Shown: positions 1,880 to 30,010 of the stretch, in pieces | How the letters are laid out: the number at the start of each line of letters is the position of its first letter | Numbering within the stretch: the stretch's first letter is position 1 | DNA from: Alistipes timonensis | GTDB taxonomy: Bacteria > Bacteroidota > Bacteroidia > Bacteroidales > Muribaculaceae | Length of the DNA: 64,000 nucleotides | NCBI GenBank assembly: GCA_023663385.1 | Contig: JAMPHO010000001.1 | Span: forward strand, 108,930-172,929 | Reading direction: 5' to 3' | Position numbers and translations under genes: made by a program | The notes under the pieces: generated by a model | What the model saw: the letters and a program-made list of their open reading frames with translations, nothing else | Told to the model about the DNA's origin: nothing | Database searches by the model: none

Positions 1880-4297
1880 ATGAAAAGTTTCTTTACCCTT
1901 TCACTGTCGCTGCTCGCGGCTTCCGTAGCGGGTTCGGCTTTCGCTGAGAACCCCTTCGCGCCGACTGGCAACGAGACCGTTATCGGACAGACACAGGTAC
2001 TCTATCATCCCACCAAAGACAAAATCGCCACTCTCGAAGCTGACAAGCTCGGCGCTCCCGCAGGTTGGAAGATGGAATACACCAACGCAGCCAAGACGCT
2101 TGACCAGGCTTCCTCAATCAAGATTGACGGCACGTCCTACCCCACCATCAAGATTTCCAACGGCCAGGAGTGCAAAATCACAATGCCCGAAGGGTATGTG
2201 GCCAATGCCGTTACAATCTACTCCGTGACCAACGGCGTACAGGATCCCGCCAAGATTTGCTACTGGCAGAACATCGACGGCACCAAGTATGACGCTCCCG
2301 CTTCTGACCATCTTTCCAGCTATAAGGACTACAACAACCCCGACGTAAGCTACTTCAAGCTCTCAGGCGAAAACAACTTCTTCACCATTCAGAACAAGGG
2401 TCAGCAGCCCTGCGTGGTTCTCGTGGTTGACTACTCCGAGAAGAAAGCTGAACCCGTTGACCCCGGTTTCGGCGAAGCAGCCCTCGCCGCTCCCATCGCA
2501 TGGCCCGCGAGCGGTGTGAAGATGCTCCCCGTCAACGGCTACTTCCAGCTCACCTACGAGGCTCCCGTGACCATCGCCGGAAAGGCTGACCTCAACGGCA
2601 CCGCTCTCGACATGGAGGCCGGCAACGAGCAGGGCACCGTGGTTCGCATCCCCTACACCGGGCTGACCGCCGCCACCGAGTACACCCTCACCATCCCCGC
2701 CCGCACTATCGGCAACGCCGAGGGCGCCAACGAGGCTCTCACCTACACCTTCACCACCGAGCCCGTCAACACCCTCTTCTACTGTGACTTCAGCAACCTT
2801 CCCTACGGTTACTACGAGCTCTACGGCCTCCCCTTCATCACCGATAACGTGAACATCCTCGCCAAGGGCTCGACCAACAAGACCGCTACCGCCGGTGGCA
2901 TGACCTTCTTCAGCGGAACCAGCGGCCGCGTGGTGGCTCTCAAGAACAACAACAATTCGACCGACCTCGAAGCCGACTACGGCCCCAACACCGAGGCTGA
3001 TCTCGGCGCTTCCGACCGCTGCGTGCAGCTTATCGACGGCGGCAACGGCCTCTATGTTGAGTTCCCCGAAGTTGAAGGCCCCGCCGATGTGACATTCTAC
3101 GTCGCCAACGCCAAAACCGCAGCCGGAACCATCGTGCTCACCGACGAAAACGGCGACACCAAGGCTCCCCTGACCACCTTCGAGCTCCCCGCCGCCAAGA
3201 AGATGTCGAAGTTCACCTACACTTACCCCTACAAGGGCACCGTGAAACTCCGCCTCTACAATATGAAGAACCAGATCAACATCAACGACGTGCTGATCGT
3301 GAAGGGTGAAGGCGAAGGCATCGACAAGCCCGTGATCGTCGACGAAGAGGCTCCCGTACTCGTTAAGTCCTGGCCCTCCGACGCCCCCTACGCTCCCGTT
3401 GAAGGCGCTATCGTGCTCGAATACAACGAACCCATCTTCGCATCCGCCAAAGCTACCGTGAACGGCGTTGAAACCGACATCGTTGTCGACGGCAAGAAGG
3501 CAACCATCGCCTACGCCGGTCTTGAAAACGGCAAGGCTTACACCGTGAACATCCCCGCCATTGCCGACGAAGCCGGCAACGCCACCGAGCCCCTCGCAAT
3601 GACCATCAACACCGAGGCAGCCGACGTGCTCTTCTACACCGACTACAACTTCTACCCCTACTCCTACTGGACCAAGTACAATATGTACCCCGCCGACGGC
3701 GCTGACAACGGCGACATCTTCGCGAAGAACAGCTCCGACAAGACCGTTGAGATCGGTGGCCTCACCTACGTTGTAGGCGCTACCCCCGGCCGCGTGGTGG
3801 CTATGGGCAAGTCCAACCTCGTTGACGACCCCGACAACGTGGGCGGCTCGCAGCGCTGCGCCCAGATCAGCGGCGGCGGCGATGCTCTCTACATCGAGTT
3901 CCCCGAAGTTCTCGGCCCCTGCAAGTTCACCGCCATCATCGGCAACTCCACCGCCAAGGCATTCAGCTTCACCCTCGTGAACGCCGCCGACAGCGAAACC
4001 CCCATCGCTACCTTCGACACCACTGCCGACAAGAAGATGTTCAAGTTCGAGCACACCGTGGCTGTCGAGACTCCCGTGAAGTTCCGTCTTTACAACAACG
4101 GCAACCAGTTCAACATCCACGACCTGCTCGTGACCAAGGCTGAAAAGGGTGGCACCGTTGGCGTGGCCGACGTGGCTGCTGACGCCGAGGCTCCCGCCGT
4201 TTACTACAACCTCCAGGGCGTACGCGTTGAGAATCCCGCCGAGGGTCTCTACATCCGCGTCCGCGGCAACAAGGTTGAAAAAGTACTCGTGAAGTAA
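1880..4297 (+). CDS. Secreted protein with duplicated Ig-like/beta-sandwich modules and C-terminal sorting-like tail
   Basis: This 805-residue protein starts with a clear signal peptide (about residues 1-22, ending SAFA). The middle holds two similar modules, about residues 205-470 and 490-765. Each has an Ig-like (Big_5-type) segment, then a beta-rich segment beginning with LFYCDF or LFYTDY and containing a GRVVA motif. The last 30 residues (YYNLQGVRVENP, then GLYIR and KVLVK) resemble type A sorting domains of type IX secretion and resemble the tail of the nuclease ending at 48164. An extracellular or surface role is likely, perhaps carbohydrate or protein binding; no catalytic motif is evident. 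A strong terminator follows, so it is probably monocistronic. Confidence 0.85.
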   Translation: MKSFFTLSLSLLAASVAGSAFAENPFAPTGNETVIGQTQVLYHPTKDKIATLEADKLGAPAGWKMEYTNAAKTLDQASSIKIDGTSYPTIKISNGQECKITMPEGYVANAVTIYSVTNGVQDPAKICYWQNIDGTKYDAPASDHLSSYKDYNNPDVSYFKLSGENNFFTIQNKGQQPCVVLVVDYSEKKAEPVDPGFGEAALAAPIAWPASGVKMLPVNGYFQLTYEAPVTIAGKADLNGTALDMEAGNEQGTVVRIPYTGLTAATEYTLTIPARTIGNAEGANEALTYTFTTEPVNTLFYCDFSNLPYGYYELYGLPFITDNVNILAKGSTNKTATAGGMTFFSGTSGRVVALKNNNNSTDLEADYGPNTEADLGASDRCVQLIDGGNGLYVEFPEVEGPADVTFYVANAKTAAGTIVLTDENGDTKAPLTTFELPAAKKMSKFTYTYPYKGTVKLRLYNMKNQININDVLIVKGEGEGIDKPVIVDEEAPVLVKSWPSDAPYAPVEGAIVLEYNEPIFASAKATVNGVETDIVVDGKKATIAYAGLENGKAYTVNIPAIADEAGNATEPLAMTINTEAADVLFYTDYNFYPYSYWTKYNMYPADGADNGDIFAKNSSDKTVEIGGLTYVVGATPGRVVAMGKSNLVDDPDNVGGSQRCAQISGGGDALYIEFPEVLGPCKFTAIIGNSTAKAFSFTLVNAADSETPIATFDTTADKKMFKFEHTVAVETPVKFRLYNNGNQFNIHDLLVTKAEKGGTVGVADVAADAEAPAVYYNLQGVRVENPAEGLYIRVRGNKVEKVLVK

Positions 4298-11670: not shown

Positions 11671-11698
11671 GGGGTAGGCGCAAAAAAAATTGATTGTC
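11671..11698 (+). repeat. Right attachment-site repeat (attR core)
   Basis: This is identical to 5818-5845. On the minus strand it supplies the 3' arm and T8 tract of the terminator of the small RNA at 11682-11745. Confidence 0.85.
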
Positions 11699-11745
11699 TC
11701 CCGACAACCAATCTTAGTTAACCTTAAATCTAATACCATGAAAAA
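11682..11745 (-). ncRNA. Predicted small RNA with intrinsic terminator at the attachment site
   Basis: A consensus promoter (11753-11784) is followed on the minus strand by about 40 nt, then a hairpin whose 10-bp stem (ATTGGTTGTC with GACAATCAAT, one G-U pair, loop GGGA) runs into eight T residues. This predicts a transcript of about 60-65 nt. A 23-codon frame starting ATGGTATTA overlaps it, so a leader peptide is possible. The stem's 3' arm lies in the 28-bp repeat, so integration left the terminator intact. Confidence 0.6.
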
Positions 11746-11752
11746 CACATTG

Positions 11753-15092: not shown

Positions 15093-16406
15093 TCAGAGAC
15101 CGAACGCGGCCTTCACGGCGTCAACGTAGTCGAGCTTCTCCCAGGTGAAGAGTTCGACGGTGAGCTCGCGGTCGCCGTCGTAGCGCGAGTGGAAGCGCTT
15201 GGTGACGGTGCGTGGCGTGCGCCCGATGTGGCCGTAGGTAGCTGTTTCGAGGTAAATCGGGGCGCGGAGCTTGAGGCGCTTCTCGATCGACGCGGGACGC
15301 ATGTCGAAAATCCGCTTCACGATTGCCGAAATCTCGGCGTCGCTCTTATCCACCTTGGCCGTGCCGCGGGTGTTGACATAGAGGCTGACGGGCTCGGCGA
15401 CACCGATGGCGTAGGCAACCTGCACGAGCGCCTCGCGGCACACGCCGGCGGCAACGAGGTTCTTCGCGATGTGGCGGGCGGCATAAGCCGCCGAGCGGTC
15501 GACCTTCGAGGGGTCCTTGCCGGAGAAAGCGCCGCCGCCGTGGGCGCCGCGGCCTCCGTAGGTGTCAACGATGATTTTTCGCCCGGTGAGGCCGGTGTCG
15601 CCGTGAGGGCCGCCGATCACGAATTTCCCGGTCGGGTTGACGTGGAGCACGATCTCGTCGTCGAACAGGGCGCGGAGCGCCTCGGGGAGCGCGGCCTTCA
15701 CGCGGGGAAGGAGCACCTTGGCAACGTCGTCGCGGATTATGGCGAGCATCTCGCTGTCGGCCTCCTCCTGGGTGCGGCCATCGGTGGGGCGGATGAAGTC
15801 GTCGTGCTGGGTCGACACCACGATGGTGTGCACTCGCACGGGGCGGTTGTCGCCGTCATATTCCACCGTAACCTGGCTCTTGGAGTCGGGGCGGAGGTAG
15901 CTCTTACGCTTCCCTTCGGGGGTGATGTATGTCATCTCCTCGCCTTCGCGGCGGATTTTCGACAGTTCTTTGAGGATTGCGTGGCTGAGGCCCACGGTCA
16001 GGGGGATGTACTCGGGAGTCTCGTCGACGGCGTAACCGAACATCATGCCCTGGTCGCCGGCACCCTGCTCCTCGACCTCGGCGCGCTCGACGCCGCGGTT
16101 TATGTCGGGGCTCTGCTCGTGTACGGCGGAGAGCACGCCGCACGACTCGCCGTCGAACTTCATCGAGGAGTCGCAGTAGCCGATCTCGTTGATTACCCGG
16201 CGGGCAGTTTCGGCGAGGTCAACATATGCCTCCGACTTCACCTCGCCGGCGATTACCACCTGGCCGGTGGTCACGAGGGTTTCACAAGCCACCTTCGACG
16301 CGGGGTCGTAGGCGAGCATTTCGTCGAGCACGGCGTCGGAAATCTGGTCGGCCACCTTGTCGGGATGCCCCTCGGAGACCGATTCTGATGTAAATAAATA
16401 ATTCAT
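15093..16406 (-). CDS. metK: S-adenosylmethionine synthase
   Basis: This enzyme makes SAM from methionine and ATP in the cytoplasm. The 437-residue protein has the hallmark motifs GHPDK near the start, [12 protein letters not shown] and [19 protein letters not shown]. The start at 16406 ([17 protein letters not shown]) fits the family; the frame upstream would translate the tRNA-Cys region and is rejected. A TAAATTTG -7 box lies at 16445-16452. No SAM riboswitch-like structure is visible in the short leader. Confidence 0.97.
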
Positions 16407-16459
16407 GGAGCTTTTTAGCATTTTTTTAAGTGGTTGCAAGCAATCAAATTTATCCACAA

Positions 16460-16483
16460 AAACCCGCCCCATCGGGGCGGGTT
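16460..16483 (-). terminator. Terminator after tRNA-Cys
   Basis: A GC-rich stem (CCCGCCCC with GGGGCGGG and a 3-4 nt loop) runs into TTTTTGTGG on the minus strand, just downstream of the tRNA. Confidence 0.85.
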
Positions 16484-16491
16484 CAGGATGG

Positions 16492-16562
16492 AGGTACCAA
16501 GCGGAATCGAACCGCTGTAGACGGTTTTGCAGACCGTTACCTAACCACTCGGCCATGGTACC
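16492..16562 (-). tRNA. tRNA-Cys (GCA)
   Basis: The minus strand folds as a 71-nt cloverleaf. The acceptor stem is GGTACCA with TGGTACC, the anticodon loop CTGCAAA has anticodon GCA, and the T-loop is GTTCGATTC. The discriminator base is U, as expected for tRNA-Cys. The CCA end is not encoded. Confidence 0.95.
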
Positions 16563-28171: not shown

Positions 28172-28780
28172 ATGAAATACCTTATATCGTTTGTCAGCTT
28201 TATGCTCGTCGCGGTGATGAATGCCGCGGCCGCCAAGCCGGCATCCCAGAAAAACTCTTCCGCCAAGCTCCCCGCCACCGAGGAGATGAACCTGGCGTCC
28301 ATATCAAAGACCAACCCTTTTGAAATCGTTCCGGCAGCCGGCATGGAGCTGCTCGAAGACCTCGACGCGGCTGACAACGAGCGTATGGTGGCCGATATGA
28401 TTTCATTCGCGAAAAAATATATCGGCACCCGCTATGTTCGCGGTGGCAAGGGCCCCAAAGGGTTCGACTGCTCCGGCTTCACGAGCTATGTTTTCAACCA
28501 GTTCGGCTACTCTCTCAATCCCTCCTCGGGAGGCCAGTACGGCCAGGGCGAGAAAATCACCCGCGACGAGGTGCAGCCCGGCGACCTCCTGTTCTTCACC
28601 GGTCGCTCAGCCAAAAGCGGCCGGGTGGGCCACGTTGGCATGGCTATCGATAACAACCCCGAAACCGGTGAAATCACCTTCATCCACGCGGCCATCAGCG
28701 GCGGCATCCGCATCGACCGCGTTTCCGCCCCCTACTACGCCGCCCGCTACATCGGCGCCCGCCGCGTCCTCGGCAACTAA
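28172..28780 (+). CDS. NlpC/P60-family cell-wall hydrolase
   Basis: This 202-residue secreted protein has a signal peptide (about 1-21, ending NAAAA) and a C-terminal NlpC/P60 cysteine peptidase domain. The catalytic residues are Cys100 (GFDCSGFTSYVF), His154 (RVGHVGMAID) and probably His172 (FIHAAISGG). It likely cuts peptide stems of peptidoglycan in the periplasm. The start at 28172 puts the signal peptide at the N-terminus; the frame to 28130 adds 14 residues of poor fit. Confidence 0.92.
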   Translation: MKYLISFVSFMLVAVMNAAAAKPASQKNSSAKLPATEEMNLASISKTNPFEIVPAAGMELLEDLDAADNERMVADMISFAKKYIGTRYVRGGKGPKGFDCSGFTSYVFNQFGYSLNPSSGGQYGQGEKITRDEVQPGDLLFFTGRSAKSGRVGHVGMAIDNNPETGEITFIHAAISGGIRIDRVSAPYYAARYIGARRVLGN

Positions 28781-28901
28781 TCCCCCGCCCCCACCCGCCA
28801 ATACATCCGCGCATAGTACTGTGTTATAGAATACTTAAGCGAATCTAAAAACTTAAAATCAGCTAAATCGCCTAAATATCAAGAAAAATTCGGGAGCCGA
28901 T

Positions 28902-28932
28902 TTTGTTTTTTGAAATAAAAGCATTACATTTG
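28902..28932 (+). promoter_or_regulatory. Promoter of the AbiF-type leader RNA and gene
   Basis: TTTG (28902-28905), 19 nt, then TACATTTG (28925-28932) matches the consensus. Transcription should begin near 28939, only about 55 nt before the start codon. Confidence 0.8.
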
Positions 28933-28938
28933 CAGCAA

Positions 28939-28993
28939 CATACTTACCCCGCTTCCCGTAAGAACAGCGCGCTCAGGGTAAGTTTTTCTTTTT
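28939..28993 (+). ncRNA. Structured leader RNA with terminator, directly upstream of the AbiF-type gene
   Basis: The roughly 55-nt leader folds into a terminator: ACTTACCC (28942-28949) pairs with GGGTAAGT (28976-28983), with inner pairing CGCT (28950-28953) to AGCG (28966-28969), followed by TTTTCTTTTTT. The ATG at 28995 comes one base later. A rival hairpin pairs CTTAC (28943-28947) with GTAAG (28958-28962) and would break the terminator. Structured RNAs upstream of abiF-type genes have been described and proposed as RNA antitoxins; this looks like one. The exact ends are inferred. Confidence 0.65.
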
Positions 28994-28994
28994 T

Positions 28995-29885
28995 ATGGCA
29001 CTTCCAAGATATGCTAAACCTCAGATTTCTGTATCTGAACAAATTCGACTTCTAAAATCTGAAGGCTTGAAATTCTCTGACGAGAACAGGGCACGACACA
29101 TTCTTGAAAACATCAGTCTTTTCAGGATGAAAAGCTACCTTATGCCTTTCAGGAACGCTGGATCTCGATTGTTTATACCTGAAGCAAATTTTGAGGATGC
29201 GTATCAACTCTATAAGTTTGATTCTGAATTGCGAAAAATGATTTGCTCCGAAATGGAGAAAATCGAGATTTCAATCCGTACACAATTATCCTTAATAATG
29301 GGTGATGAAGCCGGAGTGTATTGGTTTGAGGATAGTTCAAATTTCAGGAATGCCAAACTTCATGCCGGACTCCTTGCAAGTTTGGAAGCTGAATTGCGCC
29401 GAAGCGATGATGACGCTATAGTTGACTTTCAACGTAGGTACTCAAATGCTTTCCCTCCAAGTTGGATGGCATTCGAGGTAAGTTCATTCGGAACATTATC
29501 CATGATGTATCGTTGGCTTAATGCTGGTCACGCACGCCGAAAGGTTGCTCAGTTCTATGGTTTGACAGATACGGTTATGGAGTCGTGGCTGCATTCAATC
29601 GTATATGTACGCAATATTTGTGCCCATCATAGTCGGTTATGGAACCGTAGATTGAGCATCAATGCGATTGTTCCCCGAAAGACACTATTTCCCTTCATAA
29701 GTATTCCAGTGGATACCAAACGCGTATATTACGTCATATCAATCCTTATGTATTTTCTTCAGGCTGTCAATCCTAAGAACACGTTTGCGGACCGTTTTAA
29801 GTCAATGCTGGCAAAATATCCCAATGTTAACGTAGCAGCTATGGGATTTCCGGATGATTGGCAGAATGAAGCTCTTTGGCAATAG
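28995..29885 (+). CDS. Abi_2 (AbiD/AbiF-type) HEPN abortive-infection protein
   Basis: This 296-residue cytoplasmic protein matches the Abi_2 family of phage-defence proteins. The N-terminal signature (ISVSEQIRLLKSEGLKF, then HILENISLFRMKSYLMPF) is typical. The HEPN ribonuclease motif is R206-x4-H211 in RNICAHHSRLWNRR, expected to cut RNA and stop growth on infection. The gene is markedly richer in A+T than its neighbours, which suggests horizontal transfer. It has its own promoter and a terminator-bearing leader RNA, and a hairpin follows. No separate protein antitoxin gene adjoins it. Confidence 0.9.
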   Translation: MALPRYAKPQISVSEQIRLLKSEGLKFSDENRARHILENISLFRMKSYLMPFRNAGSRLFIPEANFEDAYQLYKFDSELRKMICSEMEKIEISIRTQLSLIMGDEAGVYWFEDSSNFRNAKLHAGLLASLEAELRRSDDDAIVDFQRRYSNAFPPSWMAFEVSSFGTLSMMYRWLNAGHARRKVAQFYGLTDTVMESWLHSIVYVRNICAHHSRLWNRRLSINAIVPRKTLFPFISIPVDTKRVYYVISILMYFLQAVNPKNTFADRFKSMLAKYPNVNVAAMGFPDDWQNEALWQ

Positions 29886-29946
29886 GCATGCAACCGCAAT
29901 CAATATGCTTATCTTAATAAGACAAGTGGAATTTTAAAATAACATA

Positions 29947-29976
29947 CGTAAGCGCCGCTTTTCAGCGGCGCTTACG
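29947..29976. terminator. Bidirectional hairpin between the abi gene and ligA
   Basis: A perfect 13-bp GC-rich stem (29947-29959 with 29964-29976) with a TTTC loop lies between convergent genes. Flanking T-tracts are weak. Confidence 0.7.
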
Positions 29977-30010
29977 CATTATAAATTAGGTACCTGTAAT
30001 GGTGCTGGGG

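Follow-up and report, generated by a model that had tools for sequence, protein, structure and literature searches.

An AbiD/AbiF-type HEPN RNase gene of Alistipes timonensis preceded by a divergent abiF RNA, a probable antitoxin with solo relatives in phages

A stretch of 64,000 nt (hereafter the window) was found to carry a gene of the AbiD/AbiF family of HEPN RNases with a short structured RNA directly in front of its start codon. This locus is quite probably an RNA-protein toxin-antitoxin (abortive infection) unit of the AbiD/AbiF type, the antitoxin role of the RNA being suggested by its relatives. The RNA is shown by comparative analysis to be a divergent subtype of the known abiF RNA that has co-diverged with its protein clade. 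RNA subtypes follow protein clades in this family, and one large divergent subfamily, which is widespread in Bacteroidota, lies outside the Rfam model. The first-pass annotation had regarded the HEPN gene and its structured, terminator-ended leader as one unit; the conservation of the leader and the match of the protein to PDB 8VZ6 support this.

The leader RNA (28937-28993, plus strand) is a structured RNA of the window-type abiF-like kind with a length of approximately 54 nt, a predicted 5′ end at ~28937 and a predicted 3′ end at ~28985-28994 in a T tract. Its outer stem is formed by pairing of ACTTACCC (28942-28949) with GGGTAAGT (28976-28983), which is also the terminator stem, and its inner stem by pairing of CGCT (28950-28953) with AGCG (28966-28969). 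The apical loop TCCCGTAAGAAC (28954-28965) is conserved as TCCCRYnnGAnY in alignments A1 and A3, a conservation that is partly set by the search pattern used in collecting the leaders. On the 3′ side a 6-nt bulge, CGCTCA (28970-28975), follows the inner stem, an architecture as in the Rfam abiF model RF03085. The T tract TTTTCTTTTTT (28984-28994) forms the tail of an intrinsic terminator and abuts the ATG; a T-rich run after the stem is common among homologous leaders. The terminator, with its T tract running up to the start codon, had been described before and was borne out in the sequence, and the inner helix and the 3′ bulge were added in the present analysis. In silico, the RNA ends at this terminator (28942-28994), between the promoter and the toxin start codon. 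Since the T tract reaches right up to the ATG, an effect of the hairpin on translation is conceivable as well. The single-strand fold of the leader has an energy of -13.0 kcal/mol compared to -8.1 kcal/mol for shuffled sequences (z -2.2), which alone is weak evidence; it is the comparative evidence that carries the claim.

Upstream of the leader, a promoter (28902-28932, plus strand) was identified that consists of TTTG (28902-28905), a 19-nt spacer and TAcaTTTG (28925-28932). The previously proposed promoter thus holds, and it is of the Bacteroidota -33/-7 type and not of the sigma-70 type. For the leader, a sigma-70 scan gave no promoter, which is what one would expect in Bacteroidota. Of 90 Abi-linked homologous leaders, 81 have TTTG and 55 have TAnnTTTG in the 15 nt preceding the RNA start.

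The gene itself (28995-29885, plus strand; ATG at 28995) is an intact open reading frame of 296 aa. Pfam Abi_2 (PF07751) matched its product with 172.7 bits (E 1.3e-50) over profile positions 1-184 of 184, PADLOC called it AbiD (E 2e-72), and PDB 8VZ6 (‘Abi family protein’) matched residues 6-296 (E 1e-61). The protein is therefore AbiD/F-type by family matches, a membership that was tested and not guessed. An HEPN motif R206-x4-H211 had been noted in the Abi_2 protein from its sequence; both assignments were upheld by Pfam and by the 8VZ6 alignment, in which R206 and H211 of R206-N-I-C-A-H211 (RNxxxH) align with R210 and H215. 8VZ6 represents PbAbiF together with its ncRNA (Zilberzwige-Tal et al. 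2025, as described in PMC12737573 and PMC12373285), and PbAbiF is known as a toxic dimer that has its active site at the interface and cleaves single-stranded RNA. A double mutant of R210 and H215 is inactive (PMC12373285).

Two further Abi_2 genes are located in the same genome, at G000:C47:58-942 (L001) and G000:C11:80128-80640 (L003). The C47 copy has an RF03085-like leader (29 bits, cut by the contig start), so that two RNA subtypes occur in one genome. The GC content is 0.40-0.43 over the Abi_2 gene of the window and 0.52-0.63 in its flanks, and the gene is distributed patchily among relatives. Because the gene is AT-rich and patchy, its acquisition is likely. Of the earlier suggestion that an AT-rich gene had probably been acquired, the drop in GC content was confirmed and acquisition stands as likely from the patchiness; no empty site was readable at the ligA side, since the genes next to ligA do not keep their order across the genus. 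Between the Abi_2 gene and the convergent ligA lies a strong hairpin of 16 pairs (29944-29979), a probable terminator.

In other genera and families, homologues at 43-86% protein identity are preceded by nearly the same leader, and the sequence further upstream differs. It still precedes the genes at L009-L011, the proteins of which share only 43-49% identity. A 25-nt core pattern was matched exactly at least 120 times among 84,980 species genomes, where about one would be expected by chance according to our own estimate, and also matched 19 viral contigs. An Abi-type ORF lay directly downstream of the core in 93 of 156 cases among the matches listed. The core pattern fixes the loop and the inner stem and leaves the outer stem almost free, so that the outer stem can be tested independently. 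Among the stem cells of 78 Abi-linked leaders, 99.5% pair compared to 88.4% in shuffled alignments (0 of 500 shuffles as high). RNAalifold gave a poor consensus for the ungapped 78-row alignment because the 3′ bulge of one subtype differs from that of the other by one base, and the two subtypes were then counted apart. The 26 leaders of the window subtype have 99.4% of their stem cells paired (99.0% in the outer stem) and 30 cells changed on both sides versus 8.8 in shuffles (reached in 0 of 500), with two-sided changes at five of the eight outer-stem pairs. For the second RNA subtype, 100% of the stem cells are paired (0 of 500 shuffles as high). A conserved RNA structure upstream of homologous genes, which had been named as one check on the first interpretation, was thus found together with covariation. 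On the other hand, the inner stem is invariant and does not allow a covariation test; the inner helix and the loop hardly vary and lend no covariation support, which was counted against the main reading. The leaders keep a mean column identity of 82-89% over 57 nt and vary mainly by paired stem changes.

A covariance model scan of 395 Bacteroidia genomes, which was not limited by the core pattern, gave 22 matches at E <= 1e-4 including the window, and in 15 of these an Abi ORF or a piece of one follows immediately downstream. The genome of the window itself contains 34 window-like cores with one or two mismatches compared to 20 for a reversed-pattern control. Further cores were rejected as additional RNAs, as the RNA model finds the window copy alone in this genome.

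A covariance search against known abiF motifs had also been suggested, and its outcome was mixed. With RF03085, no match was obtained in 28780-29060 at E <= 10, and only chance matches to other Rfam models were seen; the connection was instead made by a model of a second subtype. Model R1 recognises the window leader with 83.8 bits (E 5.5e-22), this leader being one of the 26 training sequences of R1. Model R2, which was built from the second subtype only, recognises the window leader with 50.7 bits (E 1.6e-12). R2 also finds the leader at L023 with 40.3 bits (E 3e-9), which itself scores 46.9 bits with RF03085, and the second leader at L016 with 32.8 bits (E 7e-7), L016 being over the RF03085 threshold. 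Typical RF03085 leaders are borderline for R2 (E 0.004-0.9). Leaders of relatives exceed the RF03085 threshold at the same position, including those of the relatives closest to PbAbiF; the closest one, L016, is 89% identical to PbAbiF and carries RF03085 there. The RF03085 abiF RNA and the window leader therefore share position, architecture and Abi_2 linkage and are bridged by an intermediate subtype. The RF03085 RNA has a 3-bp inner helix at the position of the window inner stem, and differs in that its model leaves the window leader without a match at E 10. In the wider sense of an abiF RNA, the window leader has an outer stem, an inner stem of 3-4 bp and a 3′ bulge of ~6 nt, and it is located upstream of Abi_2. 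On a quick tree of 83 proteins (branch support 70-100 for groups), the RNA subtypes need three changes, which is the minimum possible and was reached in 0 of 200 shuffles. The RNA subtype follows the protein clade, which indicates that RNA and protein diverged together.

Two studied relatives guide our interpretation. In C. difficile, AbiF-Cd is toxic and is neutralised by the leader RNA RCd22, which acts in cis through early termination of transcription and in trans through binding to the protein; RCd22 is made from the gene's own promoter and mostly ends before the gene (PMC12373285). The window shares with this system an Abi_2 HEPN protein and the order of promoter, RNA, terminator and gene, where readthrough yields the long transcript (PMC12373285). 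RCd22 contains two abiF motifs in ~100 nt and a separate terminator hairpin, whereas in the window RNA there is a single motif, with its outer stem serving as the terminator. A double motif like that of RCd22 was also observed in a relative, where RF03085 occurs twice in tandem ahead of a single Abi gene (L022:2420-2456 and 2566-2602, minus strand). PbAbiF, with ~33% protein identity to the window protein, is a full-length homologue with an aligned RNxxxH motif, and its RNA is encoded in cis directly upstream. Its RNA and the window RNA are alike in having an outer stem, a short inner stem and a 6-nt 3′ bulge. The window RNA differs in its loop (CGCUUCCC...CAGCG versus AGCCUCUCAACGAUGCU), in a longer outer stem and in having no match to RF03085. 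Single-stranded bulge nucleotides of the PbAbiF RNA inhibit the RNase (PMC12737573), and by analogy the bulge at 28970-28975 may be the equivalent of this inhibitory bulge. AbiD, AbiD1 and AbiF of L. lactis belong to the same Abi_2 family, and AbiD is the PADLOC name for the window protein. A lactococcal prophage Abi protein is 26% identical, and the stem and T tract of its leader (L274) are of other sequence.

Judging from these relatives, the leader RNA is most probably the antitoxin. One promoter would give rise to a folded RNA of ~54 nt that mostly stops at its own terminator before the ATG. The stable RNA would bind the HEPN RNase dimer and keep it inactive, with occasional readthrough supplying the protein. 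Phage infection might then upset the balance between RNA and protein, so that free RNase would cut single-stranded RNA and growth would stop. As the outer stem of the antitoxin would also be the terminator, a single folding event would both form the antitoxin and switch off transcription of the toxin.

It might be argued that the leader acts by attenuation only, that is, as a signal-responsive cis terminator that keeps expression low without any action on the protein. The stem and T tract abutting the ATG would suit such a role, and for L. lactis abiD1 a structured 5′ UTR has been described together with a transcript that terminates early (PMC12373285). We nevertheless consider attenuation alone unlikely. 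Both the loop and the inner stem keep their sequence beyond what pairing requires, phages carry the same RNA by itself, without an Abi gene that could be attenuated, and RCd22 acts in trans by binding its protein (PMC12373285). Moreover, a switch would require an antiterminator, and the proposed one is not conserved. The pairing of 28943-28947 with 28958-28962, put forward in the first-pass annotation, can form in the window, but across homologues 71.5% of its cells are paired compared to 70.3% in shuffled alignments, with zero two-sided changes and hence no covariation. A riboswitch-like leader with competing terminator and antiterminator was therefore rejected.

Cas13 is regarded as having arisen from AbiF-type units, and the RNA had earlier been thought to restrain or guide the nuclease. 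A leader RNA that guides the HEPN protein to target RNA in a Cas13-like manner seems highly improbable to us, even though AbiD/F proteins group in one clade with compact Cas13 HEPN domains (PMC12165695). No variable guide segment was found across the aligned leaders, which keep their high column identity over all 57 nt; the guide role thus did not gain support. Given the conserved loop sequence, a protein-binding element is expected rather than a variable guide. The 296-aa protein has one Abi_2 domain match, in contrast to the two HEPN domains per chain of Cas13-like RNA-guided effectors, and the PbAbiF RNA is known as an inhibitor (PMC12737573). That the leader is an ordinary intrinsic terminator or promoter region folding by chance, with nothing specific to AbiD/F, would agree with the only moderate excess of the single-sequence fold over shuffles, but this has next to no probability left, being already refuted by the match counts, the position of the core directly before Abi ORFs and the strong covariation.

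About 60 of the 156 cases among the matches listed lack an Abi gene, some of the genome cases being cut by the locus end, and the gene is absent at 17 of the first 19 viral contigs matched by the core pattern. Of 42 IMG/VR records with an RNA of one or the other type, which are often fragments, 39 had no Abi_2 when the whole record was searched with PF07751; the same search found none in any of 10 INPHARED records, among which the named phages are deposited as genomes. Eight of the ten INPHARED loci are over the RF03085 cut-off and the other two (L236, L238) rest on a blastn match. Blastn of the window leader against INPHARED gave no match; IMG/VR is the source of the window-type phage copies. 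Weak matches of two variant queries in mycobacteriophages and in Stenotrophomonas and Pseudomonas phages lay nearly all inside annotated coding genes and were not counted.

In the T7-like Aeromonas phages PZL-Ah8 and T7-Ah, the solo RNA is located between the connector and scaffold genes, just after a phage promoter-like ACCCTGACTATAGGGATAAC, and the two copies differ by a compensatory G-C to A-T change. Solo RNAs lie inside tRNA clusters in cyanophages S-SZBM1 and S-CREM1 and mycobacteriophage Lolly9, near tRNA genes in mycobacteriophage Thibault, and in tRNA arrays in several IMG/VR contigs, one with 24 tRNAs; another was found in T4-like Acj61. Several window-type solo RNAs have phage genes as neighbours (terminase, portal, endolysin, head closure, DNA polymerase, replicative helicase), and at L163 and L166 none of the tested neighbours was recognised. 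Among the window-type viral copies, 95% of stem cells pair, and six pairs show changes on both sides. Seven RF03085-type IMG/VR copies (L206, L209, L211, L214, L217, L218, L221) are without the distal 3′ strand of the outer stem, so not all solo RNAs share the full fold.

We lean slightly towards the reading that AbiF/AbiD antitoxin RNAs serve as a widespread phage counter-defence, in which unrelated phages carry the RNA alone and would thereby keep the host AbiD/F RNase inhibited. This reading covers the T7-like Aeromonas phages, mycobacteriophages, T4-like Acj61, cyanophages and the contigs with the window subtype, which has its own matching phage copies. In the phage collection, the records with Abi proteins are those of Gram-positive phages or are unassigned (‘Bacteriophage sp.’), and most of the RNAs lie in other records, a distribution that fits RNAs kept for their own sake. 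A precedent is pseudo-ToxI of phage phiTE, a phage-borne RNA antitoxin without its toxin (PMC3475682). Like the solo RNAs, it is a phage copy of the RNA antitoxin of a defence system; it consists of type III ToxIN repeats and its escape was shown by experiment, whereas the solo phage RNAs are known here from sequence. Rival explanations are a phage processing or termination element or a relic; against a plain terminator speaks the conservation of the loop sequence across unrelated phages. An abiF sRNA has been described in cyanophage S-CREM1, its role being unexplained there (PMC9964418, PMC12197685), and no decoy proposal was found in the literature on phage abiF sRNA, a search that did not cover the main AbiF paper (Cell 2025). 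If the solo RNAs are decoys, they would explain this sRNA, and AbiD/F defence would gain a matching RNA counter-measure. The solo phage RNAs are the part of this work that is worth an experiment.

A region of the lactococcal phage sk1 was reportedly found by Rince et al. in 2000 to protect phage 712 from AbiF. It was rejected as a solo abiF-type RNA, as sk1 has no RF03085 match and nothing resembling the leader of the lactococcal prophage Abi gene. On the Persicobacter plasmid NZ_AP025302.1 (L205), a GIY-YIG nuclease gene (3068-3892) lies between two window-type RNAs (3002-3058 and 3895-3951), neither of which has an Abi gene next to it; the RNAs may be a pair of mobile decoys, or else this kind of RNA serves a different nuclease here. 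The phage scaffold MT836731.1 carries a DUF3800-VIII RNA (RF03075, 76.7 bits; L238:1852-1915) ~310 nt from a solo abiF-like RNA, and the 16.8-kb record contains neither DUF3800 nor Abi_2, which hints at RNA-only counter-defence clusters in phages. Elsewhere in the window, a FopS-family small RNA (RF04319, 79.7 bits) was found at 11680-11748 (minus strand), and a SAM-II riboswitch (57.2 bits) at 16405-16463 (minus strand) has a tRNA-Cys gene of the same strand (16492-16562) ~30 nt away.
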